Shown piece by piece: positions 2,759 through 35,002 of a DNA stretch of 35,002 nucleotides. The DNA is from a virus, in the IMG/VR virus record IMGVR_UViG_3300048778_000058, positions 1 to 35,002 of that record; one strand, 5' to 3'. The translations under genes were made by a program, and so were the position numbers. Positions within the stretch are counted from its first letter, which is position 1. Every line of letters begins with the position of its first letter. The notes beneath the pieces were generated by a model that was not told the origin of the DNA, did not search any database, and saw nothing but the letters and a program-made list of their open reading frames with translations.

Positions 2759-2941
2759 ATGAAAGACGAGACTAAACAGGAAATTTGTAGGATGTTAGAA
2801 AATCATGTAGAAGAGCTTAATAATATTTTCGAAAATGGTTTTCAAAAAATTGATAAGAGTTTTGACGAATTGGAAAACAAACTTGATAAAAGTATTGCTA
2901 GACTTTCGAGAATTGTTAAGAAATTGGAAGATGAAAAATGA
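2759..2941 (+). CDS. Small coiled-coil protein, 60 aa
   Basis: The ATG at 2759 is chosen over an in-frame ATG at 2735 because a strong AAAGGAGATTTT site sits directly before it. The product MKDETKQEICRMLENHVEEL continues as one long amphipathic helix with two FDELENKLDKSIARL-like heptads, so it is predicted to be a soluble coiled coil. It starts the right-hand small-gene unit whose promoter-like ACATAAATA element lies at 2723-2730. Its stop overlaps the next start as ATGA. The function is unknown. Confidence 0.65.
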   Translation: MKDETKQEICRMLENHVEELNNIFENGFQKIDKSFDELENKLDKSIARLSRIVKKLEDEK

Positions 2942-3099
2942 ATGAAAATGAAAATATTATTAAAATAGAATCTTTTTATGGCTTTGTTAATTATATTCCG
3001 GAAAGTGTTGTAGAATTAAAAAATATTGATTTAGAAACAAGTTATGGATATACTCATTATAATTCTTTTATGTTTATTCCAGGAATTTTCGCATGGTAG
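2938..3099 (+). CDS. Small ORF, 53 aa, unknown
   Basis: ATG 2938 overlaps the previous stop in an ATGA arrangement, and its TAG at 3097-3099 overlaps the next start at 3093, so translational coupling is expected. The product MNENENIIKIESFYGFVNYI...GIFAW is acidic and aromatic-rich, with no motif I recognise. Support comes from the tight chain of overlaps on both sides and the lack of any gap in the operon if it is counted. It falls below common gene-length cut-offs and is easily missed. Confidence 0.55.
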   Translation: MNENENIIKIESFYGFVNYIPESVVELKNIDLETSYGYTHYNSFMFIPGIFAW

Positions 3100-3284
3100 T
3101 AATAAAAACTAATAACGATTTTACGATTTCTACATATCCTGAAGAAGAGTTTTCCGAAATTGTTGCAGATGTAAAATTTATTTTGAATAACGCTCGCAAT
3201 ACTGATATTAAAATTTTTAGAGAAAATGTTATTTCAAAAGATATTACAGAAAAGGTTTTAGAAGAAGTTTTGAAAAGGAATTAA
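3093..3284 (+). CDS. Hypothetical protein, 63 aa
   Basis: ATG 3093 lies inside the end of the preceding ORF. The product MVVIKTNNDFTISTYPEEEF... has alternating strands followed by a helix. It resembles in layout (TNxDFTIxT...) its neighbour at 3286, and the two could be small paralogous alpha/beta proteins. No catalytic motif is visible and the function is unknown. Confidence 0.65.
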   Translation: MVVIKTNNDFTISTYPEEEFSEIVADVKFILNNARNTDIKIFRENVISKDITEKVLEEVLKRN

Positions 3285-3285
3285 C

Positions 3286-3468
3286 ATGATAACTTTTATA
3301 GCTGCAAAAAATATTGGATTAGAAATAGATTTTGATGATTCTGAAATGTCAGATATATTAAATTTAACTAAAGAATGTATTTTGAAAAAGATAAATTTCA
3401 AAATAGTTTTAGAAAAAGATAATAATAAAACTGATATAACATCGATTGTAAAAGGAATGAGGTATTAA
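3286..3468 (+). CDS. Hypothetical protein, 60 aa
   Basis: It starts one base after the previous stop (TAACATG), with AAAAGGAATT serving as ribosome site inside the upstream gene. The product MITFIAAKNIGLEIDFDDSE has the same strand-helix-strand outline and length as the preceding 63-residue protein, including a C-terminal TDITSIVK that parallels SKDITEKVL there. This suggests an old tandem duplication, but similarity is weak by eye. The function is unknown. Confidence 0.65.
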   Translation: MITFIAAKNIGLEIDFDDSEMSDILNLTKECILKKINFKIVLEKDNNKTDITSIVKGMRY

Positions 3469-3470
3469 AA

Positions 3471-3944
3471 ATGAAAAAGAAATGCACTAAATGTGGTGAA
3501 CTAAAAGAATTATCCGAATACTATTTGGACGTCCATTGTAGATATTTTTCCGAATGTCGTGCATGTAATCGAAAAAGAAATAAGCAACGTTACGATAAAA
3601 ATCCGGAAAAAGTTAAAGAAATTGTAAAAGCTCATAACGAAAAAGTAGGAACAGATGTTGTAAAAGGATATCTAAAAAAGTCTAGAGAAAAACTTCCAGA
3701 AGGATTTCTAAATTGGGAAGCAAAAATTAACAAAGAAGCTAGAGGCATTTTAACACCACCAGAAGGCTTTCAAATTTCCAGACGCATACCTGCACGTTTT
3801 TTCTTTGAAACCTCTCTACAGACACTCGTAAACGTTTCTGATAATCTTTTTATAATACCTAGATACTCAAAAAATAAGATTGATTGGGATTTTATCAATT
3901 CTAATCAAATTTTGAAAGATATTTGCGAAAAATTGAAGAATTAG
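3471..3944 (+). CDS. Zinc-finger protein, 157 aa (HNH/endonuclease VII-like N-terminus)
   Basis: The N-terminus KKKCTKCGELKELSEYY...CRACNRKRNKQRY has two CxxC pairs (C5/C8 and C30/C33), a treble-clef zinc finger found in many phage proteins of the endonuclease VII/HNH superfamily. No obvious HNH catalytic His-Asn pair follows, so nuclease activity is not assured. Residues 50-157 are basic, then mixed, and unfamiliar. It is the last gene of the rightward chain and converges with the leftward HNH-AP2 gene, overlapping it by four bases (3941-3944). No terminator separates them. Confidence 0.65.
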   Translation: MKKKCTKCGELKELSEYYLDVHCRYFSECRACNRKRNKQRYDKNPEKVKEIVKAHNEKVGTDVVKGYLKKSREKLPEGFLNWEAKINKEARGILTPPEGFQISRRIPARFFFETSLQTLVNVSDNLFIIPRYSKNKIDWDFINSNQILKDICEKLKN

Positions 3945-4444
3945 TATAGTCCAAGCATTTTATTAGTTAGAGCAAATTCTCCAAAATACTTGATAGCCGC
4001 TGAGTCATAAGCTTTAGCGGCTTCTATTTTATCAGAAAAATATCCTAAGAAAACAGGTTTTTTATTACCTTTTATTTTACACTGCCAATTTTGATATTTT
4101 TTATACCAAACAACTCCTTTAAATCCAGAAGTATTATTTTTAGACATTAAACATTTTCTACAATTTTCTGTGTTAGTTACTAATTGAAGATTTTCTATTT
4201 TATTATTTGAACGATTATTATCTATATGATCTATAAAAATACCTTTCGGAATTTTTCCATTAAACATTTCAAAAATTATTCTATGACATTTATATATTTT
4301 CTTATTATATCCAATGTCATAATAATTAGTTTTTTTTAAAGTTCCGGCTATTAAATCTTTATTTTTACCAGATCCTAACTCTTTCCATCGCAAACAACTA
4401 GGGCTTGTTTCATCATATTCTAAAATTTCATTCCAATTTATCAT
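3941..4444 (-). CDS. HNH homing endonuclease with AP2 domain, copy 1 (167 aa)
   Basis: Residues 54-90 carry the HNH core: CHRIIFEMFNG, then FIDHIDNNRSNNKIENLQL, with His54, His73 and the conserved Asn residues. Residues 106-161 are an AP2 DNA-binding domain (SGFKGVVWYKKYQNW...FGEFALTN). This HNH_3 plus AP2 pairing is typical of free-standing phage homing endonucleases. The start is ATG 4444, where all three paralogues begin MINWNEI; an upstream in-frame ATG would give an unrelated N-terminal tail running through a terminator. It has its own TAAATAG element (4463-4471) just behind that terminator. Paralogues lie at 6297-6803 and 9839-10363. Confidence 0.9.
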   Translation of the reverse strand: MINWNEILEYDETSPSCLRWKELGSGKNKDLIAGTLKKTNYYDIGYNKKIYKCHRIIFEMFNGKIPKGIFIDHIDNNRSNNKIENLQLVTNTENCRKCLMSKNNTSGFKGVVWYKKYQNWQCKIKGNKKPVFLGYFSDKIEAAKAYDSAAIKYFGEFALTNKMLGLY

Positions 4445-4462
4445 AATAACCTCAATTACACA

Positions 4463-4471
4463 ACTATTTAT
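4463..4471 (-). promoter_or_regulatory. ATAAATAGT element before the HNH-AP2 copy 1
   Basis: On the minus strand ATAAATAGT stands between the terminator at 4489-4515 and the start codon at 4444. It is the only promoter candidate for the endonuclease once the upstream operon has been terminated. Confidence 0.5.
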
Positions 4472-4477
4472 CTTATT

Positions 4478-4515
4478 AGAAACAAAAACTCCCAGAACCA
4501 AAAACGCTCTGGGAG
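4478..4515 (-). terminator. Intrinsic terminator of the leftward early operon
   Basis: On the minus strand an 8-bp stem CTCCCAGA/TCTGGGAG is followed by TTTTTGTTTC. It lies between the 4551 stop and the HNH-AP2 promoter element. Confidence 0.8.
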
Positions 4516-4549
4516 AAACTGTATTATAAGGAGATCGCAACTACAGTTT
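4516..4549. repeat. Inverted repeat with an orphan ribosome-site motif
   Basis: AAACTGTA (4516-4523) and TACAGTTT (4542-4549) enclose ATAAGGAGATCGCAAC. This looks like the AAGGAGATCACAAA leader of early genes but has no start codon after it. It may be a relic of a rightward gene or part of the 4551 transcript end. Confidence 0.45.
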
Positions 4550-6207: not shown

Positions 6208-6236
6208 ATTATAGCAAATTTAATCTAGCTTGTCAA
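6208..6236 (-). promoter_or_regulatory. Consensus sigma70 promoter
   Basis: On the minus strand TTGACA (6236-6231) and TATAAT (6213-6208) match both consensus boxes exactly, with a 17-base spacer. It drives the leftward small early genes 6124 to 4551. The spacer GATTAAATTTG recurs in the promoter at 24695. Confidence 0.9.
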
Positions 6237-6271: not shown

Positions 6272-6296
6272 GTCGCTACGCTCCAGCCTTCGGCTA
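6272..6296 (-). repeat. GC-rich 25-bp inverted repeat, left arm
   Basis: The core GGCTGGAGCGTAGCGAC on the minus strand is preceded by a small AGCC-GAA-GGCT hairpin. It matches 7111-7135 at 24 of 25 positions in opposite orientation. It abuts the stop of the HNH-AP2 gene copy 2. Confidence 0.8.
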
Positions 6297-6803
6297 TTAC
6301 AATAATCCAAGCATTTTATTTGTAAGAGCAAATTCTCCAAAATATTCTATAGCCGCTGAGTCATAAGCTTTAGCGGCTTCTAATTTATCATTGAAGTATC
6401 CTAAATGAATATATTTTAAATTTATTAGTATATTTGCTCTCCATATATTTCTTCTTTTTTCCAGTGTCACTCCCTTATAACCAGAAGTATTATTTTTTTG
6501 CATTAAAGATTTTCTATTATTTTCTGATTTAGTAGCTAGTTGTAAGTTTTCTATTTTATTATTTTCTCGATTATTATCAATATGATCTATGAACAATTCT
6601 TCAGGAATTTCTCCATTAAACATTTCGAAAATTATTCTATGACATTGATATTTTTTCTTATTATATCCAATTTCATAATAATTAGTTTTTTTTAAAGATC
6701 CAGCGAATTTACCTATCTTTATTGCAGGATTTGTAGAAACTTTCCACCACAAACAACTCGGACTTGTTTCATCATATTCTAAAATTTCATTCCAATTTAT
6801 CAT
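6297..6803 (-). CDS. HNH homing endonuclease with AP2 domain, copy 2 (168 aa)
   Basis: Its architecture matches the copy at 3941: MINWNEILEYDETSPSC start, HNH core CHRIIFEMFNG...DHIDNNRENNKIENLQL (His55, His74), and AP2 domain from about residue 107 (SGYKGVTLEKRRNIW...FGEFALTN). The last 40 codons are close to copy 1 at DNA level, so duplication or conversion is recent. Its ATG overlaps the polymerase-like gene stop in ATGA, so the two are translated together. One arm of a GC-rich 25-bp inverted repeat (6272-6296) begins right at its stop codon; the other arm is at 7111-7135. Confidence 0.9.
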   Translation of the reverse strand: MINWNEILEYDETSPSCLWWKVSTNPAIKIGKFAGSLKKTNYYEIGYNKKKYQCHRIIFEMFNGEIPEELFIDHIDNNRENNKIENLQLATKSENNRKSLMQKNNTSGYKGVTLEKRRNIWRANILINLKYIHLGYFNDKLEAAKAYDSAAIEYFGEFALTNKMLGLL

Positions 6804-8356
6804 TTTATTTTTCCTTTTAATATTTTTTCTATAAATTCTTCTTTCGACATTTTACTTTGTAATACAATCTGGTCCCTACCACCCTTTTTTTGATATCTCC
6901 AATACTTTTTTCCTCTTTTTGTCTTTTCTGTAACATTAATACAACATCTTGTGGTTTTTGAATTATATACACTACATAATGTGGTCCCTACCAATAAAAA
7001 GTCGCCCATATAGGAGCTGTGCTCTCTGCCCTGTGATTCTTCTTCTTTTTTTAGTGCTTGGTTATTTTCTTTATTGGTAGGGACCAGATTTTCAATCAAA
7101 AAAGATTTGTTAGCCGCAGGCTGGAGCGTAGCGACTTGATTTCCAATTTTAAGACCACATTTAAAAGAAACATTGAATTTCTCGAAAGATTGCTTTAAAG
7201 TTACTTCAACAGTCTCTAGATCAGAAATTTTAAAAATTAGACAGTCATGCTTAGTTATTACAGGAATATTTTTAGAAATAAGAAATTTTGAACAATTGTC
7301 TAGAAAAATTTTAGATTCCATCCCAAATGCAAGATATGGAAATGAATTTTTAGATCTTAATGCATCTAGATATAGTTCAGTTTTAGGAAATTTCTTAGAA
7401 AACCACTTATTAATTTCTTTTTTGGTATCGGTCATTGCGGAATTAGAATCACAAAGCCAAGATATTACATTTTGTTTAATTTCTAATCTTGTAATATCTT
7501 TATTAATTTCCAATTTTATAGATTCATATATATCAGAATTAGAAACAATAAACTTTTCTAATTCTTTTAATTCATTCCATAATATATCTTTTTGTTTAGA
7601 AATAGTTTTATAAGATAATTTTCTAATTATTTCCGGAATTAGAGTAAAATAAGTGCAATGTTGGTCCAATTCGGCTGTTTGTTCTCCATCAATAAAAATA
7701 TATTTGTTTACTGGAGAAGATAATTTACAAATGTTATTATAAAGTCTAGTATCTTTTCGTCTTTTCGGATTGCATTTTCCAGTTTTGTTAATTTTTTGGA
7801 TAATTTTCCATTGATCTTCTAAATTTTCTTCAGTAAAATCATTTTTTGGATAATTTTTTAATTCTTCTTCTAGTTGTTTTTTAGAAATGTTTATTAAAAT
7901 TCCTTTATTCCAACATGATTTTTCACCTCTTAATAATTGTTTTTTAAAAATTTTTTGAATAATTTTATAATCTTTTTCTTCAAATTTATAAAAAGTTTCT
8001 CCAGAATATATAGGATTGAGATAATATTGTGTAGATTGAAATAATCCAGACGCAGAAGTTAAAACTATATCAGAAAAATTTAAAATAGTATCTAAAAATG
8101 GTTTATAATTTTCTTTAATATCTTTTATAGTTCTTGTTCCAATATATTTTGCATTTATTTCATTATAATATTTTTCTTTGTTTGGTTTAGCAACATAATT
8201 TACAAAATCTAGTGCTCTAATCCAATCATTTTTGTTAATATTTGAATTTTTAGTAACAAACGGTAATTCTTTAACCTTTTCAATAACTTTTTCTGAAAAA
8301 TAAAAACGAACCATATTTGATAGTGATCCGTTTTTTATATTATTTTCTATTTTCAT
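6800..8356 (-). CDS. Family A DNA polymerase-like palm protein, 518 aa (putative replication protein)
   Basis: Three blocks in the right order resemble family A polymerase motifs. A motif A-like ELDQHCTYFTLIPEII (residues 229-244, Asp231) comes first. A motif B-like RLEIKQNVISWLC (Arg290, Lys294, spacing RxxxKxxxIxxxC) follows. Then LAFGMESKIF precedes a motif C-like ITKHDCLIF with His370-Asp371. This is the outline of short palm-only family A-like proteins seen in phages and mobile elements; no 3'-5' exonuclease domain is evident. Residues 405-518 form an unusual extension whose DNA contains a palindromic element and iteron-like repeats. It is first behind the 8500-8528 sigma70 promoter with a structured leader. 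It is the only recognisable replication gene. It could instead be a primase-polymerase or an inactive relative. Confidence 0.6.
   Translation of the reverse strand: MKIENNIKNGSLSNMVRFYFSEKVIEKVKELPFVTKNSNINKNDWIRALDFVNYVAKPNKEKYYNEINAKYIGTRTIKDIKENYKPFLDTILNFSDIVLTSASGLFQSTQYYLNPIYSGETFYKFEEKDYKIIQKIFKKQLLRGEKSCWNKGILINISKKQLEEELKNYPKNDFTEENLEDQWKIIQKINKTGKCNPKRRKDTRLYNNICKLSSPVNKYIFIDGEQTAELDQHCTYFTLIPEIIRKLSYKTISKQKDILWNELKELEKFIVSNSDIYESIKLEINKDITRLEIKQNVISWLCDSNSAMTDTKKEINKWFSKKFPKTELYLDALRSKNSFPYLAFGMESKIFLDNCSKFLISKNIPVITKHDCLIFKISDLETVEVTLKQSFEKFNVSFKCGLKIGNQVATLQPAANKSFLIENLVPTNKENNQALKKEEESQGREHSSYMGDFLLVGTTLCSVYNSKTTRCCINVTEKTKRGKKYWRYQKKGGRDQIVLQSKMSKEEFIEKILKGKIK
6869..7086. repeat. 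Iteron-like GGTAGGGACC repeats and a 17-bp inverted repeat
   Basis: TGGTCCCTACCAATAAA (6982-6998) and its exact reverse complement (7070-7086) are 71 bases apart. A further CTGGTCCCTACCA lies at 6869-6881, and a shorter GGTCCTACCAAC lies at 8401 in the gene leader. All sit in or next to the replication gene, as origin iterons do in some phages. Confidence 0.6.
7111..7135 (+). repeat. GC-rich 25-bp inverted repeat, right arm, inside the polymerase-like gene
   Basis: It has the same core as 6272-6296 (GGCTGGAGCGTAGCGAC), read here in frame by the polymerase-like gene as VATLQPAA near residues 408-415, directly after the polymerase-like domain. Confidence 0.8.
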
Positions 8357-8499: not shown

Positions 8500-8528
8500 A
8501 GTTTATCATCTTTAATGTAGTATGTCAA
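8500..8528 (-). promoter_or_regulatory. Sigma70 promoter of the polymerase-like gene
   Basis: On the minus strand TTGACA (8528-8523), a 17-base spacer, then TAAACT (8505-8500). The minus-35 is perfect and the minus-10 has four of six consensus bases. The leader to the start codon at 8356 is about 135 bases and strongly structured. Confidence 0.75.
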
Positions 8529-8549: not shown

Positions 8550-9002
8550 ATGAAAAGAAAATATTATCCAGAAGAAGACTTAGAAACAACTTTAGCAAAG
8601 ACTTTCTTAAAATGTAAAAAGAAGTCTCCCGAAAAGAATATAATTTATTACAGAAAAAGTATTATAAACGGTATTCAGTCAAGATGTGGTAAAAAGAGAT
8701 CTTACAAAAATATAAAAAATGAATTTACCACAGATACATATAATATTTGGTTTACATCGCAGGAAAATATTATTCAGAAAATTTTGGATGCTGGTTTGAC
8801 TCCTAGTTGTGAGAGAGTAAATTCTGCAAAAAATTATTGTCCGGAAAATTGCATCGTCATACCTAACAATTTGAACCGTGTATTAGGTAAAATAAACGGC
8901 TTAAAACGTGAATTAGATAATTATCGCAAGTATGCCAAGGAGAATTTAAGATGGCTTCCAGAGGCTCTAAAAGGCTATTACAAGGAAACTTACAAATTAT
9001 GA
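8550..9002 (+). CDS. HNH-like endonuclease candidate, 150 aa
   Basis: The C-terminal half has LTPSCERVNSAKNYCPENCIVIPNNLNRVLGKIN (about residues 83-115). This follows the phage HNH-type pattern PSxDRxDxxxGYxxxNxxVIxxxxN, though the catalytic Asp position is Glu88-Arg89 and no classic HH pair is visible. The N-terminus is basic and helical. It is the first rightward gene after the divergent region, and GTAAATAAC directly before it may be its promoter element. Nuclease function is inferred from pattern only. Confidence 0.6.
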   Translation: MKRKYYPEEDLETTLAKTFLKCKKKSPEKNIIYYRKSIINGIQSRCGKKRSYKNIKNEFTTDTYNIWFTSQENIIQKILDAGLTPSCERVNSAKNYCPENCIVIPNNLNRVLGKINGLKRELDNYRKYAKENLRWLPEALKGYYKETYKL

Positions 9003-9157
9003 AAAACTCTCCAATAACTCCAGAAAGACTTGAGCAAGTGATTCCGAAAAAACTTTTAGATGAAGTTTCAGATATTTTCGAAAAGAATATTGAAATATTA
9101 AATTTAGAAATATCAGAAGCAGAAAAATTCCTAGAAAATTTTCCGAAAGACTTGTAA
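8999..9157 (+). CDS. Small acidic helical protein, 52 aa
   Basis: It starts at ATG 8999, overlapping the previous stop as ATGA, with AAGGAAAC upstream. A longer reading from 8951 would lie entirely within the preceding gene. The product MKNSPITPERLEQVIPKKLL continues as an acidic helix ending in NFPKDL. No family is recognised. Confidence 0.55.
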   Translation: MKNSPITPERLEQVIPKKLLDEVSDIFEKNIEILNLEISEAEKFLENFPKDL

Positions 9158-9190
9158 GAATACTCGTAGAAAAACTTTTTTAAGAAAATC

Positions 9191-9207
9191 TATAAATAAA
9201 AATGAGA
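9191..9207 (+). promoter_or_regulatory. TATAAATA element before 9240
   Basis: TATAAATAAAAATGAGA, preceded by an AAAACTTTTTTAAGAAAAT stretch and followed by AAGGAGATCACAAA. It is the best match in the window to the T4 late promoter core TATAAATA. Confidence 0.55.
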
Positions 9208-9838: not shown

Positions 9839-10363
9839 ATGATAAATTGGAATGAAATTTTTGTATATGATGAAACTAGTAAATCATGCTTACGTTGGAA
9901 AGAACGAGGATTATTAAAAAGTAAACATAAAGATTTATCGGCTGGATGTTTCAATAAAGTTTCAAAATATTATTCTGTAAAATTTAATAAAAAAAATTAT
10001 CAAGTTCATAGAATAATTTTTGAAATGTTTAATGGAAAGATACCAAATGGAAAATTTCTAGATCATATTGATAATAATCGTTCTAATAATAAAATAGAAA
10101 ATTTAAGATTGGCAACACACTCAGAAAATATGAAAAATAGAAATATTCCAAAAAATAATAATAGTGGGTATAAAGGAGTATATTTTAGAAAAGATATTAA
10201 AAAATGGTATGTTCAAATAACATTAAATAATAAGAGAATAAATTTAGGAGTATTTTTAGATATTTTAGAAGCATCCGCTGTATACGATAAAGCAGCTATC
10301 AAATATTTTGGAGAATTTGCTCTAACTAATAAAATATTAAAAATAAAGGAGGATATAAGATGA
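9839..10363 (+). CDS. HNH homing endonuclease with AP2 domain, copy 3 (174 aa)
   Basis: It is the third paralogue, here on the plus strand. It has MINWNEIFVYDETSKSC, the HNH core VHRIIFEMFNG and LDHIDNNRSNNKIENLRL (His57, His75), and an AP2 domain from about residue 109 (SGYKGVYFRKDIKKW...FGEFALTN). Its C-terminus differs from the other two (KILKIKEDIR). It starts three bases after the preceding gene, with ribosome site AAGGA inside it, and overlaps the next ORF by ATGA. It probably spread within this genome by homing. Confidence 0.9.
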   Translation: MINWNEIFVYDETSKSCLRWKERGLLKSKHKDLSAGCFNKVSKYYSVKFNKKNYQVHRIIFEMFNGKIPNGKFLDHIDNNRSNNKIENLRLATHSENMKNRNIPKNNNSGYKGVYFRKDIKKWYVQITLNNKRINLGVFLDILEASAVYDKAAIKYFGEFALTNKILKIKEDIR

Positions 10364-10554
10364 TAGATTACTATTTCTTATTAAAAAATATTAAAAATGT
10401 TAATATTAGTAAGGAAGAGTATTACTTTAATCTTAACCATTTCGAAAAAGAAGGAGTGATTCTTGAATGCTGGAAATTAGACACTAGTGACGATCCTTTA
10501 GTTTTTACGATATATAAACCAAATAATAACTTTGTTAAAATATTTAATAAATAG
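10360..10554 (+). CDS. Hypothetical protein, 64 aa
   Basis: The ATG overlaps the stop of the HNH-AP2 gene in an ATGA. A strong AAAGGAGGAT site within that gene decides the start. The product MIDYYFLLKNIKNVNISKEE is aromatic and mixed in charge, with no recognised domain. Its TAG stop lies within the TAAATAGT promoter element of the next unit (10548-10555). Confidence 0.6.
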   Translation: MIDYYFLLKNIKNVNISKEEYYFNLNHFEKEGVILECWKLDTSDDPLVFTIYKPNNNFVKIFNK

Positions 10555-10602
10555 TTTAGTAAAATCGTCCTAAGAGACGTTAAAAAATTAGGAGAAAATA
10601 AG
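10548..10602 (+). promoter_or_regulatory. TAAATAGT element plus CGTC/GACG hairpin leader, copy 1
   Basis: TAAATAGT (10548-10555) is followed by a hairpin with stem CGTC/GACG and loop CTAAGA (10566-10579), then an A-rich spacer and AGGAG. About 40 bases are identical to the scaffold-gene leader at 15495. The element overlaps the stop codon of the preceding gene. Confidence 0.65.
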
Positions 10603-11051: not shown

Positions 11052-11101
11052 TAAATATATAGTGAAGTCGTCAAAAAGACGTTAAAAAAATTAGGAGTAA
11101 A
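11052..11101 (+). promoter_or_regulatory. TAAATATA element plus CGTC/GACG hairpin leader, copy 2
   Basis: TAAATATA (11052-11059) is followed by CGTC-AAAAA-GACG (11069-11081). The loop sequence differs from the other copies while the stem is kept, which argues that the hairpin itself is selected. It heads the terminase operon directly after a terminator. Confidence 0.65.
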
Positions 11102-11102
11102 T

Positions 11103-11450
11103 ATGTCAGAATTAGAAGTAAAACCGCATAAAGTTATTTCCGTAAACAAAGTTAAAGATTACGACGAAAAATCTCAAGAAGAAATCCAAAAAGAGCTAGA
11201 TGATCGTGCAGTAGCTTTGGAAGACGAACTCCAGACAAAAATGAATGCAGATCTAACAAAGATGATTGCATTTTATAGTGACACAACTCCTTGGGATGCT
11301 ATGTCAATTATTTCGATGGCTAAGTTGCTTGTAGATAGCTATTATGATCTTATAAAACAGCGTTGGGCAGATTATAATGCAGATCCCGAAAATTTTAGAA
11401 AAGAATCGGCAGAAGATTTAAAGAAACTTGCTGAGACTGTGGAGGAGTAA
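11103..11450 (+). CDS. Hypothetical protein upstream of terminase, 115 aa
   Basis: It starts at ATG 11103 after TTAGGAGTAAAT. The product MSELEVKPHKVISVNKVKDY is acidic, with a central helix (SIISMAKLLVDSYYDLIKQRW) and an acidic C-terminus. It is first in the terminase operon, six bases before the next gene. Size and place would suit a packaging accessory protein, but no motif supports an assignment. Confidence 0.65.
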   Translation: MSELEVKPHKVISVNKVKDYDEKSQEEIQKELDDRAVALEDELQTKMNADLTKMIAFYSDTTPWDAMSIISMAKLLVDSYYDLIKQRWADYNADPENFRKESAEDLKKLAETVEE

Positions 11451-13451: not shown

Positions 13452-15473
13452 ATGGATATAGATAACATTTCCGAAAGTTTACCAGATGAGATTTCTGAGG
13501 ATATTTCGAAAAAACTTACAAAAAAGGATTTAACAGATATTTACGAAGATTCTTTAGATAATTTGAAAACATCTCAGGATGCTTTTTCCGAAATACATAA
13601 CAAATATATTAAAGATATACAGTTCGGATTGTTAGGAAATCAATGGGACGATTCTACACTTTCAACAAGAAAACTTGAAAATAGAACTTGTAAAACTTTT
13701 AATAAATTAGTGTCGAATATTCGCTACGTCGTTAATAGCAACATGCAAAATCCTCCTGCAATTAAGGTTCATCCTATTTCGGAAGGGACTAAAGAAGTTG
13801 CCGAAATCTATGACGGACTTGTAAAACATATTGAGAATGAATCTAATAGCAATGATTTAAGATCTGCTGCATTCCAGGATGCGGTGGCCGGGAGTGTAGG
13901 TGTTTGGAAAATTATTACGAAAGACTGTGATGATTATCCTGGACAATTAGAGATTTATGAGGAAAGAATTGTAGATCCGACTACAGTATTCCCAGATCCC
14001 GAAGCAATAGATCCTACAATGTGTGATGCCAAATGGTTATTCCACATTAAAGACCTTGATATAAAGCGTTTCGAAAAACTTTATCCAGATGCAGAAACAA
14101 CAGACGTAAAAGAAGTTATGTCAGATTGGTTTAAAAAAGATTCCGTAACAATTGCTGAATATTGGATTAAAGATGGTTCAAAAGTTTCTTGGTATATCTT
14201 AAATGGTAACGAAATTTTGGATAGTTCTGAATGGAGAGATTTACCTTATCCTGGAAAATATATCCCTTTCACTTTTATATTGGGAGAAGATATTACAATA
14301 GATGGCACAAGGACTATTAAATCTATTATAAGAGATAGTATTGATTATCAGACTACTTTAAATTATATGCAAAGTGAAGCTATAGATTATGTTCAAAAGT
14401 CAGCTAAAACTCCTTGGTTAGCGTCTGATGCATCTATTCAGCCATATAAAAAGGTCTGGGATATTGCTAATACTGCTAATCTACCTTTCCTGCCTTATGT
14501 CCATGGCGAAGAGAAACCCTCCAGAAATGATCCTCCTGCCGCTCCTGTAGGTTATTTGGAAGCTGTTTCTGATATGTCTAATGCTATTAAAGAAACAGTT
14601 GGAATCAAAGATACATTTCAAGATCTTCCCGCAGGTGCTTCAGGAAAGGCTATTAAATTACAGATGGCACAAAGCAATATTGGAACATATGTTTGGACAG
14701 ACCATCTTAATAGAGCTATCAAACATGCTGGAAAAATTATTGTAGATCTTATTCCGCATTTTTATTCCCATGAACATATTCAGCAAATTTTGGGAATAGA
14801 TGGCACAATATCTTCCGTAAAAATTGGTGGAATAGATGGAGTAAATCTTAAAGGAAAATATTCTGTGACACTTTCGACAGGTGCCTCTTACGAAGATCAA
14901 CGCCAAGAAACAAATGAAAATATGCTAGATCTTTTCAAACTTGATCCAGAAATGATTAAAGTTTTTGGAGATATGTTCGTCCGAAATATGGATTATCCCG
15001 AATCTAATCAAATGGCGGATCGTTTACAAGCAACTATGGATCCAAAGATACTAGCAGCAGGAAAAAATACTTCCGAAAATACTATGAAAGGTCAAATGAT
15101 GGCTTTAACACAGCAATTCGAACATGCCCAGCAAACTATCGATCAATTGACAAAAGCTCTCCAAAACGAAACTCAAGCTGCTAAAGCTCTTCAAGCCAAA
15201 CTTCAGGATAAATTTAATACAGAACAGTTGAGAAGCCAGACGGAATTACAAAAGACTCAGCTTGATAATAAATCTTACGAAAATGTAGAGCAAATGAAAG
15301 GAGAATATGATTTAAAGATGAAAGAAATGGAAGATATGTTAGAACGGTTCAAAGTTTTTATGAATCCGGTTGTTCCAGAAGGTCCAAAATCAGTTCATAT
15401 CGAAAAGCATGAAACAAATATAGTTCCTACACACGCTCCAGAACAACACCTGCATTTAGGAATGGGTATGTAA
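13452..15473 (+). CDS. Portal protein (P22 gp1-like), 673 aa
   Basis: The size, the position after terminase and the features match P22-type portals. An N-terminal QWD...ENRTCKTFNKLVSNIRYVVN region leads into IRDSIDYQTTLNYMQSEAIDYV and GASGKAIKLQMAQSNIGTYVW, typical of this family. Residues about 555-640 form a long coiled coil (QQTIDQLTKALQNETQAAK...MKEMEDMLERF), the equivalent of the P22 C-terminal barrel helix. A dodecameric ring at the DNA-entry vertex is the known role. It has its own TATAAATAG element (13401) and ribosome site AAAGGATTTTTCAA. Confidence 0.9.
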   Translation: MDIDNISESLPDEISEDISKKLTKKDLTDIYEDSLDNLKTSQDAFSEIHNKYIKDIQFGLLGNQWDDSTLSTRKLENRTCKTFNKLVSNIRYVVNSNMQNPPAIKVHPISEGTKEVAEIYDGLVKHIENESNSNDLRSAAFQDAVAGSVGVWKIITKDCDDYPGQLEIYEERIVDPTTVFPDPEAIDPTMCDAKWLFHIKDLDIKRFEKLYPDAETTDVKEVMSDWFKKDSVTIAEYWIKDGSKVSWYILNGNEILDSSEWRDLPYPGKYIPFTFILGEDITIDGTRTIKSIIRDSIDYQTTLNYMQSEAIDYVQKSAKTPWLASDASIQPYKKVWDIANTANLPFLPYVHGEEKPSRNDPPAAPVGYLEAVSDMSNAIKETVGIKDTFQDLPAGASGKAIKLQMAQSNIGTYVWTDHLNRAIKHAGKIIVDLIPHFYSHEHIQQILGIDGTISSVKIGGIDGVNLKGKYSVTLSTGASYEDQRQETNENMLDLFKLDPEMIKVFGDMFVRNMDYPESNQMADRLQATMDPKILAAGKNTSENTMKGQMMALTQQFEHAQQTIDQLTKALQNETQAAKALQAKLQDKFNTEQLRSQTELQKTQLDNKSYENVEQMKGEYDLKMKEMEDMLERFKVFMNPVVPEGPKSVHIEKHETNIVPTHAPEQHLHLGMGM

Positions 15474-15494
15474 AACTTTTCTGAAAATTTTTAT

Positions 15495-15546
15495 TAAATA
15501 GTTTAGTAAAATCGTCCTAAGAGACGTTAAAAAAAAAGGAGCAAAT
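15495..15546 (+). promoter_or_regulatory. TAAATAGT element plus CGTC/GACG hairpin leader, copy 3 (scaffold)
   Basis: This is the same element, hairpin (15513-15526) and A-run as at 10548, then AAAGGAGCAAAT and ATG. Five kilobases separate the two near-identical copies. Confidence 0.65.
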
Positions 15547-16413
15547 ATGTCAGAAGAAAATGTTAATGATATTGTAGAAGAAGTTGTAGATAATTCCCCA
15601 GAAGTTTCCGAAAATGAGACTGAAAATACTGAAGAATTACCAAAAGAAGAGCCATATAAACCATGGATTTCCGAAAAAAAGGTTCCAGAAACTATTCCTT
15701 ATTCAAGATTTTCAGAAGTAAATTCCCGAAAAAATGAATTGGAAAGGGAATTAGAAAAAGAAAGAGAAGAATTAAAGAAATTTAGAGAAACTTCCGAAAA
15801 GGTTTCCAAATATAATTCTGTAGATGATTTGAAACTTTCGAATTTTGATAATATTGAAGATTATCAGAGAGCTTTAGTAGAAGTTATTCAGAAAAATACC
15901 GAAAAAGTTTACGAGCAGAAAGATGAAGCAAAACGTATTCAGAAAATTGAAAATGATATTGCTGAAACTTTTAATAATCGTTTGATAAAAGCTTCCGAAA
16001 GTAATCCAGATGTTATAGATGCTGCTAATTATATTGCGGAAAAGGCTAATCTATTCTCGCCGGAAACTAGATATGCACTTGTTACCGACGATCATGCCCC
16101 GGAAATTATGCACGAAATAGCAACTACCCCAGGACTTCTGAAGAGTCTTTTGCAAATGAATCCTGTAGATGCTTCTCGAAAAATTGGAAGGATGTCTGCA
16201 AAATATGATGATCGGCCAGAAGGAGTTTCGAAAGTTACTGCAAGAGGTTCCGAAATACCTGATGTAATGCCTGGAACAAAAACTCCTGCGAAAACTGGTT
16301 CTCCAAATACTCAAGGTAAACCTGCAAATGTTGGTAAGGTAAAATGGCACCCAGGAATGTCTGCCTCAGAACAAAAACAATTACAAAAAGAAGGAAGATT
16401 AATTGGATGGTAA
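15547..16413 (+). CDS. Scaffolding protein (P22 gp8-like), 288 aa
   Basis: It is highly charged, with an acidic N-terminus (IVEEVVDNSPEVSENETENT), a long helical coiled-coil region (NSRKNELERELEKEREELKK) and a basic C-terminus ending in KVKWHPGMSASEQKQLQKEG. This is the standard scaffold layout, in which the C-terminal basic helix-turn-helix contacts the coat. It lies between portal and coat as in P22, with size close to gp8. A terminator with a U-tract follows (16443-16473). The leader (15495-15546) is shared with the gene at 10603. Confidence 0.85.
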   Translation: MSEENVNDIVEEVVDNSPEVSENETENTEELPKEEPYKPWISEKKVPETIPYSRFSEVNSRKNELERELEKEREELKKFRETSEKVSKYNSVDDLKLSNFDNIEDYQRALVEVIQKNTEKVYEQKDEAKRIQKIENDIAETFNNRLIKASESNPDVIDAANYIAEKANLFSPETRYALVTDDHAPEIMHEIATTPGLLKSLLQMNPVDASRKIGRMSAKYDDRPEGVSKVTARGSEIPDVMPGTKTPAKTGSPNTQGKPANVGKVKWHPGMSASEQKQLQKEGRLIGW

Positions 16414-24686: not shown

Positions 24687-24723
24687 CTATTTATATTATA
24701 ACAAATTTAATCTCTCTGGTCAA
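24687..24723 (-). promoter_or_regulatory. Sigma70 promoter of the 24661 gene, overlapping a TATAAATAG element
   Basis: On the minus strand TTGACC (24723-24718), 17 bases, TATAAT (24700-24695), running straight into TATAAATAG (24695-24687). The spacer and minus-35 surroundings (AGTCCTTGAC, GATTAAATTTG) match the early promoter at 6208. Confidence 0.85.
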
Positions 24724-24773
24724 GGACTTTCTTCGACTTTAGGAAGATTTTCAAGAAATATTTTCAAAAACTC

Positions 24774-30727: not shown

Positions 30728-32676
30728 TGGCATTACAAATACAGCTTAGAAGAGGTAATAAGGCGACCTGGGCATCCGTAAACCCTATTCCATCACAGGG
30801 AGAACCTTGTATTGAATTAGATACCGGAAATATCAAAATAGGTAATGGAAGTAATAATTACAATACTCTTCCTTATGCTTGGACTAATTCAGGAATATCT
30901 GCAATAAACATTACGTCAACTACTCTAAATGTTTCTGGAAGTCCTTTAACTAGTGCTGGAACAATAGATTTGGAATTGATTACTATAGGAACTTCAGGAA
31001 CATTTACTAAATTTGTTTCAGATAATTATGGTAGACTAACTTCAGGAGGATTTTTAACAAGCGCTGATATTCCTTTACTTCCATATGATGCTACAAGTGC
31101 TTCAATACTTTGGAGTAGAATTTCCGGAACACCTACAACACTTTCCGGATATGGTATTACTAGTTCTGATACTATGTTTGATAAGAAATACCTTTCGGCA
31201 GTTTCTACAAACTACGGTTCGGTTTCTTCAGTTGGAATAAGTTCAACCACACTAAGCATTGGATTAAGTCCTGTTACAACTTCTGGAACTATTTCCGTAA
31301 ATCTTTCTTTATTTGGAACATCTGGAACATATACAAAGATTTCTTCTGATCCTTATGGAAGAGTTATTTCAGGAACTACTTTAACTTCTGGAGATATTCC
31401 GGTTCTCCCATATGATGCTACAAGTGCTTCAATACTTTGGAGTAGAATTTCCGGAACACCTACAACACTTTCTGGATATGGGATAGTTTCCGCCGACGCT
31501 TTATTTAATAACAAATATGCTCAGATTTCGGCCCTTCCCAACATTTCTTTGTATCTTCCTTTAAGCGGTGGAACATTAACTGGTGCAGTGTCAGGAGTTT
31601 CTGCCAATTTCAGTACTGTAGTAACGCAAGATATCAACGTAATTGCTTCTAGTGCATCATTTAAGAATTTCCCGACCAGTCCAATTGAAATGGACGGGTA
31701 TATTAATTCATATTTTCAAATAATTTCTCAAAATCAATCATCTGGTATTTCTAATTCTACAGATTTTATTGCTACATCTGATATTGGAAATAATACTAAT
31801 TTTTATATAGATTTTGGAATAAATGGTTCAAACTATTCTCAATCTGCTAATAATTGGTATGTAAATGGTCCGAATGATGGATATATTTATACACAAGGAA
31901 GCAATTTATCTATTGGATCTATAGGAAACTCCGCAACATCTGGAAACTCGATAAACTTTTTCGTAAACTCTACGTCTGCCCAAAATATAATAGTGAATAT
32001 AACATCTTCTGGTATTTCTGCTACAAATATTTCGGCGAATTCTCAAACATTAACATCTACAGTAGATTCTCCATTAACAATAAACATGTCTGCTACTGGT
32101 GGGTTTATACATCCTATTATTGCTTTGAATACTGGAATGTCCGCCACTGTTGGTAATCGACTTAATTTCGATTTTGGTTTACAGGAAGCTACAAATAATG
32201 CTGCGAACTTTGGTTTTTGTTATCAAGGAAATGGTTCTGCAAATAATTTTATAACATTTGGAGTTTATGGAACAAATGATTTATTAACAATTTCTGCGAA
32301 CAAAACCGCGACATTTTTAGGTCCTGTGTATGGTTCCTCTGGAATAGGTTATAATATTGGTTCTGGTGGTCAAATTGTTCAAGCAACTAATAAGGCGACC
32401 GGCGTTACTTTGAATAAACTTACCGGAAATATTATTATGAGTAGTGCCGCATTAGCTTCTGCAACTACAGTAAACTTTGTTCTTACAAATTCGTTTATAG
32501 GTGCAAATGACTTTGTAGATATAAATCACACATCTGCCGGAACTTTAGGTGCATATGGATTCGCTGTGACTCCTGCAAATGGTTCAGCAACAATATTCAT
32601 TAGAAATAATACGAATGCGTCATTATCAGAAGCTATAGCAATAAAATTTATGGTTTTCAAGGCGGCAATTTCCTAA
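30727..32676 (+). CDS. Tail fibre protein with Mtd-type N-terminus, 649 aa
   Basis: Residues 1-55 (MALQIQLRRGNKATWASVNP...QGEPCIELDTGNIKIGNGSN...LPYAW) match the RRG-xxW...GE...DT...KIGDG...LPYA pattern of the Mtd N-terminal domain found at the base of many phage fibres. Two shaft units 109 codons apart follow, each containing LPYDATSASILWSRISGTPT then TLSGYGI; 65 bases of these are identical at 31081-31145 and 31408-31472. A YLPLSGGTLTG module and a distinct C-terminal head complete it. It is coupled to its neighbours through TAATG overlaps. Confidence 0.85.
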   Translation: MALQIQLRRGNKATWASVNPIPSQGEPCIELDTGNIKIGNGSNNYNTLPYAWTNSGISAINITSTTLNVSGSPLTSAGTIDLELITIGTSGTFTKFVSDNYGRLTSGGFLTSADIPLLPYDATSASILWSRISGTPTTLSGYGITSSDTMFDKKYLSAVSTNYGSVSSVGISSTTLSIGLSPVTTSGTISVNLSLFGTSGTYTKISSDPYGRVISGTTLTSGDIPVLPYDATSASILWSRISGTPTTLSGYGIVSADALFNNKYAQISALPNISLYLPLSGGTLTGAVSGVSANFSTVVTQDINVIASSASFKNFPTSPIEMDGYINSYFQIISQNQSSGISNSTDFIATSDIGNNTNFYIDFGINGSNYSQSANNWYVNGPNDGYIYTQGSNLSIGSIGNSATSGNSINFFVNSTSAQNIIVNITSSGISATNISANSQTLTSTVDSPLTINMSATGGFIHPIIALNTGMSATVGNRLNFDFGLQEATNNAANFGFCYQGNGSANNFITFGVYGTNDLLTISANKTATFLGPVYGSSGIGYNIGSGGQIVQATNKATGVTLNKLTGNIIMSSAALASATTVNFVLTNSFIGANDFVDINHTSAGTLGAYGFAVTPANGSATIFIRNNTNASLSEAIAIKFMVFKAAIS

Positions 32677-35002
32677 TGAAAATAATCCAAAATGTTTCTA
32701 CAATATCTATTCAAACTTCTGGAGATGTTAATTACAATGCTCTTTATAGTTCCGGAACTTGGTATGGCCCAGCTACACTTTCTTTAATTGGAACTTCCGG
32801 AATTTATTCTAAAGTTCAAACAGATTCGAAAGGGCGTGTTGTTTCCGGGACTACTTTAACTTCTGGAGATATTCCGGTTCTTCCTTATATTTCCGCAATC
32901 GGGACTTTACCATGGTCTCAAATTTCCGGAACTCCTACAACTCTTTCTGGGTATGGAATAACTTCTGCCGATACTTTATTCGACAAAAAATATGCACAAC
33001 TTTCTGCAATACCATCTCTAAGTATTTTATCCGCATATTTACCACTTTCTGGCGGAATATTAACAGGAGATCTTTCCGGAACTAACATATATGCTAATAA
33101 TATTTCTGGAACAAATTTAACTTCAGATCATCTAAAAACTAATATAGATTTTAATTGGGCTTTCGGATCCCTTACTAATAATGTTGTTACAAATACTACT
33201 GTATTAAATGAGAATTTGGCATATTGGGGATTTGACTTACAAGCAAACAACTCTTCAATAATTAAAATTATGTCTAGTGCATATGGTGGTATTGTTGCAA
33301 ATGCTAATATACAAGCAAACTCTTTTATAAAAACTGGTGGGACTTCCGCTCAAATATTATTAGCAAATGGTTCTGTATTACCAATTAGTGCGATAACTTC
33401 CGGTATTAGTTCATCCGGAACAAGTGGAACCGTTACATCTATTGGAGTATCTTCTACCACATTAACAATTTCCAATACTCCTATAACGACTTCCGGAAAC
33501 ATTTTAGTAAATCTTTCTGCAATAGGAATTTCAGGAATATATACAAAAGTTCAAACTGATACTTTTGGTAGAGTTGTTTCAGGATCTACTTTAACTTCTG
33601 GAGATATTCCGGCTCTACCTTACTATCCGTCAAGTGCTTCATTAAATTATCTTCCTTTATCTGGAGGAAATTTATCTGGTCCTGGAAATCTAAACGTTTC
33701 CGGAACTTTAAGAGTCAGTAATTTTATAAATTCCGTTGGAGGTTCCGAATTATTTCTTGGCGAAAATGCTGGACGAAACAATAGCACATTAGGACTTAAT
33801 ACTTTTGTTGGGAATGGTGCCGGACAAAATAATACAATTGGTAGTAATAATACCTTTTTGGGGTATTCTGCTGGTTTCGAAAATGCTGTTGGTAATGTTA
33901 ATACTTTTATTGGCGAAAATGCTGGAGTTGTAAACGTCTCCGGTAGTTTTAACACCTATGTTGGAGCTGGCGCTGGTGTAGGTCAAAGCACAATGATAAA
34001 CGGTTACGGTAATACTATGATAGGGGCGCGAATCGGTAATTGGCAACCAGAGTCTATTAATACGTTAATGATAGACGCATATGCTTTTCATAATTTCGGA
34101 ACCGTTTATAGTGATCGCGGGTCAAGTGCGGCGGAAAATGCCGGAGTATTGATTATTGGTAAGGGAAATACTACACCATCCTTACAAACACTTTCCTTAA
34201 ATGCTAATACTACGGTTTCTCAAAATTTAACTGTTTCGGGAACAACTACTCTAAACATTTTAACGACATCTGCCGGAGGAGATTTAACAGGGAACTTACA
34301 AACTCCGACTGTTTTAGGTTTAGTCGGGCATCCAGTATTTTTAGGATTTAATGGATATCTTTTTAATAATGGTTCTACAGTAGTTTCTAGAAGTATTTCC
34401 GCAAGTGATGTAGGAAATCTTTCGAATCTTTATCTTCCATTATCTGGAGGAAATTTATCTGGTCCTGGAAATCTAAACGTTTCCGGAACTTTAAGAGTCA
34501 GTAATTTTATAAATTCCGTTGGAGGTTCCGAGCTATTTCTGGGTGAAAATGCTGGACAAAACAATAGCACATTAGGACTTAATACTTTTATTGGAAATGG
34601 TGCTGGTCAAGGTAATACAGTTGGTGGTAATAATACATTTATCGGTTATGCCGCTGGGGGAAGTAATACTTTTGGTAACGTCAATACTTTTGTTGGAGAG
34701 TTAGCGGGCAATCAAAATATATCCGGATGTTTTAACACATATATCGGAGCAGGCGCTGGTGTAGGTCCTGGCACAATGGTAAACGGTTACGGTAATACTA
34801 TGATAGGGGCACGGATTGGGTACTGGCAACCAGAGTCTATTAATACGTTAATGATAGACGCATATGCTTTTCATAATTTCGGAAACGTTTATAGTGATCG
34901 CGGGTCAAGTGCGGCGGAAAATGCCGGAGTTTTGATTATTGGTAAGGGAAATACTACACCATCCTTACAGACATTAAAATTAAATGCTAATACTACGGTT
35001 TC
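32676..35002 (+). CDS. Giant tail fibre, N-terminal part (runs off the window end)
   Basis: It starts at ATG 32676, overlapping the previous stop (TAATG), and stays open to the last base. Its shaft unit (GIYSKVQTDSKGRVVSGTTL then TSGDIPVLPY...PWSQISGTPTTLSGYGITSA) is shared with the preceding gene. From about 33640 it has a 783-base (261-codon) unit repeated in tandem: YLPLSGGNLSGPGNLNVSGT, then repeats of the NTFIGxxAG type (LGLNTFVGNGAGQNN, SNNTFLGYSAG, VNTFIGENAG) that recall trimeric beta-roll adhesin repeats, then MIDAYAFHNFG. The second copy is cut by the window end. The gene most likely continues at base 1 after about 143 missing bases, for roughly 1430 residues in all. Confidence 0.85.
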   Translation, partial: MKIIQNVSTISIQTSGDVNYNALYSSGTWYGPATLSLIGTSGIYSKVQTDSKGRVVSGTTLTSGDIPVLPYISAIGTLPWSQISGTPTTLSGYGITSADTLFDKKYAQLSAIPSLSILSAYLPLSGGILTGDLSGTNIYANNISGTNLTSDHLKTNIDFNWAFGSLTNNVVTNTTVLNENLAYWGFDLQANNSSIIKIMSSAYGGIVANANIQANSFIKTGGTSAQILLANGSVLPISAITSGISSSGTSGTVTSIGVSSTTLTISNTPITTSGNILVNLSAIGISGIYTKVQTDTFGRVVSGSTLTSGDIPALPYYPSSASLNYLPLSGGNLSGPGNLNVSGTLRVSNFINSVGGSELFLGENAGRNNSTLGLNTFVGNGAGQNNTIGSNNTFLGYSAGFENAVGNVNTFIGENAGVVNVSGSFNTYVGAGAGVGQSTMINGYGNTMIGARIGNWQPESINTLMIDAYAFHNFGTVYSDRGSSAAENAGVLIIGKGNTTPSLQTLSLNANTTVSQNLTVSGTTTLNILTTSAGGDLTGNLQTPTVLGLVGHPVFLGFNGYLFNNGSTVVSRSISASDVGNLSNLYLPLSGGNLSGPGNLNVSGTLRVSNFINSVGGSELFLGENAGQNNSTLGLNTFIGNGAGQGNTVGGNNTFIGYAAGGSNTFGNVNTFVGELAGNQNISGCFNTYIGAGAGVGPGTMVNGYGNTMIGARIGYWQPESINTLMIDAYAFHNFGNVYSDRGSSAAENAGVLIIGKGNTTPSLQTLKLNANTTV
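33648..35002 (+). repeat. 783-bp tandem repeat in the giant fibre gene
   Basis: Copy 1 runs from about 33648 to 34430, and copy 2 from 34431 to beyond the end. The offset of 783 bases is constant at both 33661/34444 and 34068/34851. A third partial copy is implied by bases 82-127 of the window. Differences cluster in the NTFIG part (about 33830-33960); flanks are nearly identical. Confidence 0.85.

Follow-up and report, generated by a model that had tools for sequence, protein, structure and literature searches.

Metagenomes contain many phages with next to no replication proteins of their own, and how replication begins in them is usually obscure. The question takes a specific form in a viral record from IMG/VR (hereafter the window, meaning the whole stretch of 35,002 bases that was analysed), in which the sequence TGGTAGGGACCA occurs exactly three times in the whole record, all inside 217 bp at the 3′ end of a single ORF, 6800-8356(-). 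Do these sites mark a replication origin within a replication gene, or are they better explained by chance, by regulation at the level of RNA or transcription, or by insertion of a mobile element? The features of the gene and its repeats are as follows:

8500-8528, minus strand: sigma-70-like promoter of the polymerase gene (10/12 consensus match)
6800-8356, minus strand: polymerase gene P0001 (518 aa), a predicted small polymerase of the PolA/T7-RNAP superfamily, extended at its C terminus by a linker and a domain
7157-7924, minus strand: codons of the palm/fingers core (residues 145-400), well predicted by AlphaFold
6986-7147, minus strand: codons of a disordered linker (residues 404-457; pLDDT ~26-36), unconserved in length and sequence among homologues
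6803-6985, minus strand: codons of a C-terminal bbb-alpha domain (residues 458-518), with predicted secondary structure (pLDDT ~57)
7075-7086, plus strand: repeat copy A, TGGTAGGGACCA, with a 21-nt extended arm (7070-7090)
6982-6993, minus strand: repeat copy B, TGGTAGGGACCA, with a 21-nt extended arm (6978-6998)
6870-6881, minus strand: repeat copy C, TGGTAGGGACCA, with 16 nt (6866-6881) exactly common to A
6978-7090, no strand assigned: inverted repeat A/B, which folds as a strong hairpin in the transcript of the coding strand (z -5.6)

The original prediction for this locus described a perfect 17-bp inverted repeat, and this is present (TTTATTGGTAGGGACCA, 7070-7086(+) and 6982-6998(-)); with one mismatch the A/B inverted repeat reaches 21 nt (6978-6998 and 7070-7090). 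Two "related" copies of GGTAGG(G)ACC had also been mentioned. Further copies do exist, but all three are exact 12-mers rather than merely related sequences. They had been placed partly towards the 3′ end of the polymerase gene and partly in its leader; the first is right for all three copies, but the leader has none, and copy C lies 66 bp upstream of the start of the downstream HNH ORF. As anticipated, a genome-wide count finds TGGTAGGGACCA three times, at this locus only, and the backwards control pattern has 0 occurrences in the record. In a genome search with GGTAGGGACC allowing up to two mismatches, no other copy is nearer than two mismatches, and no other 12-mer of the genome reaches three copies in any 400-bp span. 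Each site is an imperfect dyad, TGGT-N4-ACCA, and the spacing is irregular (112 and 93 bp).

In the protein, the sites correspond to residues 424-428 (A), 455-459 (B) and 492-496 (C), which the AlphaFold model places in the linker, at the linker end and in a low-confidence loop (491-501), respectively. The peptides encoded by the three copies differ (VPT, VGT and RDQ), which points to a constraint on the DNA or RNA and excludes protein-level repetition as the cause. Two classes of dispersed element were considered and rejected. A widespread repeat does not fit an exact scan of viral contigs for ATTGGTAGGGACCA, which is found in 59 stretches but in more than one copy solely in a near-identical contig. 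An in-frame palindromic repeat element of the Rickettsia RPE type requires copies dispersed through the genome, whereas here there is a single locus.

The record encodes a P22-type portal (phrog_156, E 2e-92) together with terminase, capsid and head-closure proteins; judged by the portal, the nearest phages with annotation are podoviruses (26-31% identity), and the phage is podovirus-like. Terminase, portal and capsid queries against viral contigs return near-identical fragments only. One contig (G001, 24,424 bp, 98.6-99.8% identical to the window) spans the window start into the window end, so the window is probably a circularly permuted genome that is close to complete. The crossing in G001 falls inside tail-fibre repeats, which belong to tail-fibre-like genes of repeated segments at 30976-35002 and 1-127; because the record ends inside these repeats and is joined by G001, the length of the genome can be given only to within some hundreds of bases. 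Rfam and tRNA scans over the window found none. Two other repeat families were observed. A leader repeat (TAGTAAAATCGTCCTAAGAGACGTTAAAAA...AGGAG), possibly a shared regulatory leader, precedes three genes (10524-10600, 11060-11103 and 15471-15547; 73-93% identical), and a 36-nt promoter-like repeat is present at 6208-6236, 8500-8528 and 24695-24730.

The ORF that contains the sites has no sequence match in Pfam, PHROG, NCBIfam or PDB; a sequence search of solved structures gave nothing credible, and hhalign matched it to neither T7 RNA polymerase nor T7 DNA polymerase when these were taken as single sequences. Its earlier description as polymerase-like is borne out by fold and profile comparison. 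An AlphaFold model built with three homologous sequences has 10-residue pLDDT means mostly of 65-87 in the core (145-400), with a dip to 57 near residues 199-205; the mean pLDDT of a single-sequence model is only 37. In structural comparison, residues ~96-408 match T7 DNA polymerase (Z 11.6, rmsd 3.9, 240 residues), other matches include mitochondrial RNA polymerases (Z ~11) and PolA enzymes, and the best 50 matches all belong to the PolA/T7-RNAP superfamily. Foldseek is weak alone (best E 0.0097), with viral matches that include the Rheinheimera phage Barba DNA polymerase. Profile comparison links the family to phrog_4756 (probability 93%, E 3e-7), and phrog_4756 in turn to AUR84708 (probability 96%, E 5e-9), the divPolA2 protein modelled in PMC11348598; the direct comparison between the family and the divPolA2 profile covers the common motif A region at a probability of 6.7% (E 0.005). 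The aspartates of motifs A and C (D231 and D371) are invariant in the three homologues. Of the fingers RxxxK motif and the template-contacting arginine looked for in comparison with TV-Pol, the lysine (K294) and an arginine (R204) are likewise invariant, and the first R of RxxxK is present in P0001 alone. From the fold match and the profile chain, P0001 is predicted to be a small PolA/T7-RNAP-superfamily polymerase, whether its product is DNA, RNA or both, to which a linker and a C-terminal domain have been added. The C-terminal bbb-alpha domain, for which there is no database match, is proposed as a candidate site-specific DNA-binding domain, and its tail is weakly similar to that of one homologue (P0003). 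Among the window proteins scanned, which took in only part of the small ORFs, P0001 is the only replication enzyme found, and no D5 helicase, resolvase or integrase was found in the same set.

When P0001 was searched as a single protein against phages, plasmids, viral contigs and genome contigs, only the near-identical contig was detected. The search that worked proceeded from a 38-residue match to Vibrio phage proteins, through an alignment and profile, to a second round, and it yielded P0003 (locus L102, contig G003; 518 aa, 25% identity to P0001 overall and 31% in the core) and P0004 (locus L107, contig G005; 509 aa, 33% identity over 198 residues). Queries with these two proteins gave no matches in phages or plasmids.

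The near-identical contig retains all three copies of TGGTAGGGACCA; the loss of the repeat in close relatives, named in the original prediction as evidence against an origin, is not seen there, though this relative is too close to be informative. The L102 locus is more distant. G003 has terminase and portal families that differ from those of the window, and a GC content of 57%, as opposed to 33% in the window. The L102 linker contains three exact copies of TGCACCGATAAG, a sequence unrelated to the window motif, at 8576-8587(+), 8597-8608(+) and 8732-8743(-). Two are direct and 21 bp apart and one is inverted, giving a 16-nt perfect inverted repeat; there are no copies elsewhere in the 28.6-kb contig, in which this is the only exact 12-mer triple. 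Genes for tRNA-Tyr and tRNA-Thr (9042-9200) lie directly 3′ of the L102 polymerase gene.

The L107 locus is a weaker and looser third case. CTCCCTTYGGTC occurs in the linker (6703) and twice downstream (7063 and 7219), and three copies of TCCTTAGTTGAC lie in the intergenic region just 3′ of the polymerase gene; these are the sole two fuzzy clusters in the 24.4-kb contig. A recoding test confined to the G005 gene, which contains a single cluster copy, was negative. G005 also carries SbcC, SbcD and UvsY genes, and by its gene content the phage looks T4-like and probably has other replication genes. An IS605-type TnpB-like gene (2915-4156) lies ~1.2 kb upstream of the P0004 gene. Across 62 kb around phrog_4756 and divPolA2 genes, which are without the linker and tail, no cluster was found. 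A comparison of the loci thus suggests a cluster whose position is conserved while its sequence is replaced, strictly in L102 and loosely in L107.

A neutral or accidental repetition without function was assessed by several tests. In 100 whole-genome shuffles that preserved dinucleotide content in 1-kb blocks, no 10-12-mer triple of at least half G+C appeared (0/100). Within an 800-bp target, any GC-containing triple appeared in 0/400 shuffles, and shuffles at three targets gave 0-1/400. With the protein fixed and the last 125 codons recoded synonymously, three copies of any GC-containing 11- or 12-mer were obtained in 0/2000 trials, a result common to two separate genes. Phage DNA does hold repeat clusters: among 800-bp windows covering 762 kb of further viral DNA, 1.8% contain an exact triple and 6.8% a fuzzy one, and the homologous families number only three. 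With the window taken as the discovery, these base rates give a joint chance of ~0.001 for the two relatives, a guide rather than a formal p-value because the scan rules were fixed only after L102 had been seen. The recodings, the shuffles and the joint base rate all argue against chance, which is considered very unlikely.

Because the gene codes for a predicted polymerase, and no other replication enzyme was found in the proteins scanned, the sites would most simply be an origin. We give about an even chance to the reading, drawn from sequence comparison, that they are iteron-like binding sites of the phage's own replication protein and mark its replication origin. Sites that co-evolve with the protein reading them are expected to keep their position while their sequence is replaced, and the C-terminal domain, as modelled, would be their natural candidate reader. 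The encoded segment had been described as a linker free to tolerate such constraint, which agrees with its low confidence in the AlphaFold model, and the linker is the place where DNA sites cost the protein least. In the mechanism envisaged, the three TGGTAGGGACCA sites would be set in the flexible-linker-coding part of the replication gene, where the C-terminal bbb-alpha domain would bind them; the bound tail would bring the palm domain to the DNA, so that the first primer could be made or extended, and the host replisome would complete replication. Site sequence and polymerase tail would then co-evolve. More tentative is the idea of a one-gene replicon, in which a PolA-superfamily polymerase is its own initiator and its C-terminal domain recognises an origin in its own linker codons. 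The extension of that idea, that site and domain co-evolve and that the same place in the gene is the origin across phages with unrelated virion genes, is likewise possible but doubtful.

Several observations count against an origin or do not discriminate. There is no AT-rich tract beside the window sites, the linker being less AT-rich than the gene mean, and G003 has a modest AT-rich tract at its sites (top 2.3% of the contig). No DnaA box was found near the window repeats. GC skew, suggested as a check in the original prediction, does turn in the window, with a minimum at ~8.5 kb, but this coincides with the divergent promoters and thus does not discriminate; G003 shows a change of skew beyond its polymerase gene, in a sense opposite to that expected of an origin, and this too is taken as uninformative. 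The irregular spacing and the presence of only three copies also count against an origin, being unlike most iteron arrays, as does the fact that the hairpin is strong in two of the three homologue loci.

The main rival to an origin is an RNA element of this kind or an autoregulatory operator. In the transcript, arm A can pair with B or, alternatively, with C, and on the RNA reading, which we regard as unlikely, such hairpins would govern translation, message decay or the passage of transcription out of the polymerase gene into the HNH gene by read-through. The window transcript hairpin is indeed very stable (z -5.6), that of L102 is comparable in kind (z -4.3), and A also pairs perfectly with C over 16 nt. 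However, in L107 the hairpin within the linker does no better than shuffled sequence (z 0.08), a hairpin does not call for a third, directly oriented copy, nothing like a terminator was found close to the repeats, and hairpins are a by-product of inverted binding sites. A transcriptional operator, at which a repressor or the polymerase itself would bind to control expression of the polymerase or a downstream gene, would fit the imperfect dyad TGGT-N4-ACCA in each window site and for an arrangement (three sites in 217 bp) like that of a multi-operator control region. Promoter positions argue against it: no strong promoter is found from the sites to the start of the downstream gene, that of the polymerase gene (8528-8500) is 1.4 kb away, and the next strong one is the promoter-like copy at 6236-6208(-), a 12/12 match to the sigma-70 consensus. 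The sites also keep their position in phages whose neighboring genes differ, and an operator is judged distinctly unlikely.

Insertion or homing has to be weighed against the origin on account of the gene directly 3′ of the polymerase and a second inverted repeat, which have the following coordinates:

6297-6803, minus strand: HNH-AP2 endonuclease gene (Pfam HNH_3 and AP2), overlapping the polymerase stop, with two further copies in the window
6272-6296, plus strand: one arm of a 25-bp GC-rich inverted repeat, directly adjoining the HNH stop codon
7111-7135, minus strand: matching 25-bp GC-rich arm, at the linker start

The three HNH-AP2 paralogues (3941-4540, 6297-6803 and 9839-10363) lie on both strands and are 72-80% identical in DNA, and the HNH-AP2 gene is probably a separate mobile gene. 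The 25-bp repeat (GTCGCTACGCTCCAGCC-T[T/G]CGGCTA, one mismatch) is GC-rich within an AT-rich genome and may form a further element of this region. In the form TCGCTACGCTCCAGCC it is present in 27 other viral stretches with flanks unlike those of the window, and its 21-base form is absent from genome contigs; a host repeat was rejected as its source. On this reading, which is judged very unlikely, the 12-mer repeats would be what a mobile palindromic element left behind or its termini, or else the site targeted by the neighboring HNH-AP2 enzyme, and the 25-bp repeat would represent the ends of the element. The position of the HNH gene, its two paralogues, and the bracketing of linker, tail and HNH gene by the 25-bp repeat are in favor of such an event. 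Against it, the 12-mer is restricted to this locus and missing at the other two HNH genes, inspection by eye showed no target-site duplication, the repeats of L102 and L107 recur with other sequences, and a 14-base form of the repeat has two copies, among viral contigs, in the near-identical contig only. The bracketed C-terminal tail, moreover, has a weak counterpart in L102, and the bracketed segment is therefore probably native.

An origin at the three sites, to return to the preferred reading, can be compared with several known systems. In lambdoid phages, initiator-bound iterons lie in the middle of gene O, in a segment tolerant of length change, and the likeness is in having repeated initiator-type sites within the phage's own replication-protein gene (PMC7466680). 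However, O is a non-polymerase initiator, whereas P0001 has a predicted polymerase fold and no O-type match; lambda has four tandem iterons and an AT-rich tract in mid-gene, whereas in the window the 12-mers number three, are scattered and in part inverted, and lie towards the 3′ end, and the tract is lacking in the window and only modest in G003. In T7, the promoters phi1.1A and phi1.1B directly follow the RNA polymerase gene (gene 1), and the primary origin is located at these promoters. The two arrangements share repeated sites that adjoin the 3′ end of the gene for a PolA-superfamily polymerase and that this polymerase recognises or, in the window, would recognise. The T7 sites are promoters, intergenic and found genome-wide, whereas those of the window are coding, number three, are confined to one gene, do not precede other genes and are not known to act as promoters.

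The polymerase itself has two relatives in kind. TV-Pol is a stand-alone minimal PolA-superfamily polymerase of mobile elements (400-600 aa), predicted to act as both primase and polymerase (PMC2579912). P0001 resembles it in being stand-alone and minimal, but the fingers RxxxK arginine is unconserved in the window homologues and no D5 helicase or resolvase partner was seen among the window proteins scanned. The divPolA2 proteins of barbaviruses and Vibrio phages are ~430 aa long, with a PolA-like palm, an N-terminal domain of unknown function and no exonuclease (PMC11348598). The PolA palm fold, the profile chain and a common signature (GRxY...IDGxxT...D) connect them to P0001, but they are without the linker and C-terminal domain, there is no repeat cluster near the one examined, and their phages carry another DNA polymerase. 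If the origin reading is true, the 3′ linker of this already described class of small PolA-like polymerases would be a predictable place for an origin, even where no sequence is shared between phages, and a class now guessed to be a repair polymerase or an RNA polymerase (PMC11348598) would gain the functions of initiator and polymerase. Origins inside initiator genes are already known; what is new here, in comparison with these systems, is the gene class (a predicted PolA-like polymerase that carries a C-terminal tail), the arrangement as three scattered sites, and a position conserved without conservation of sequence across unrelated phages.
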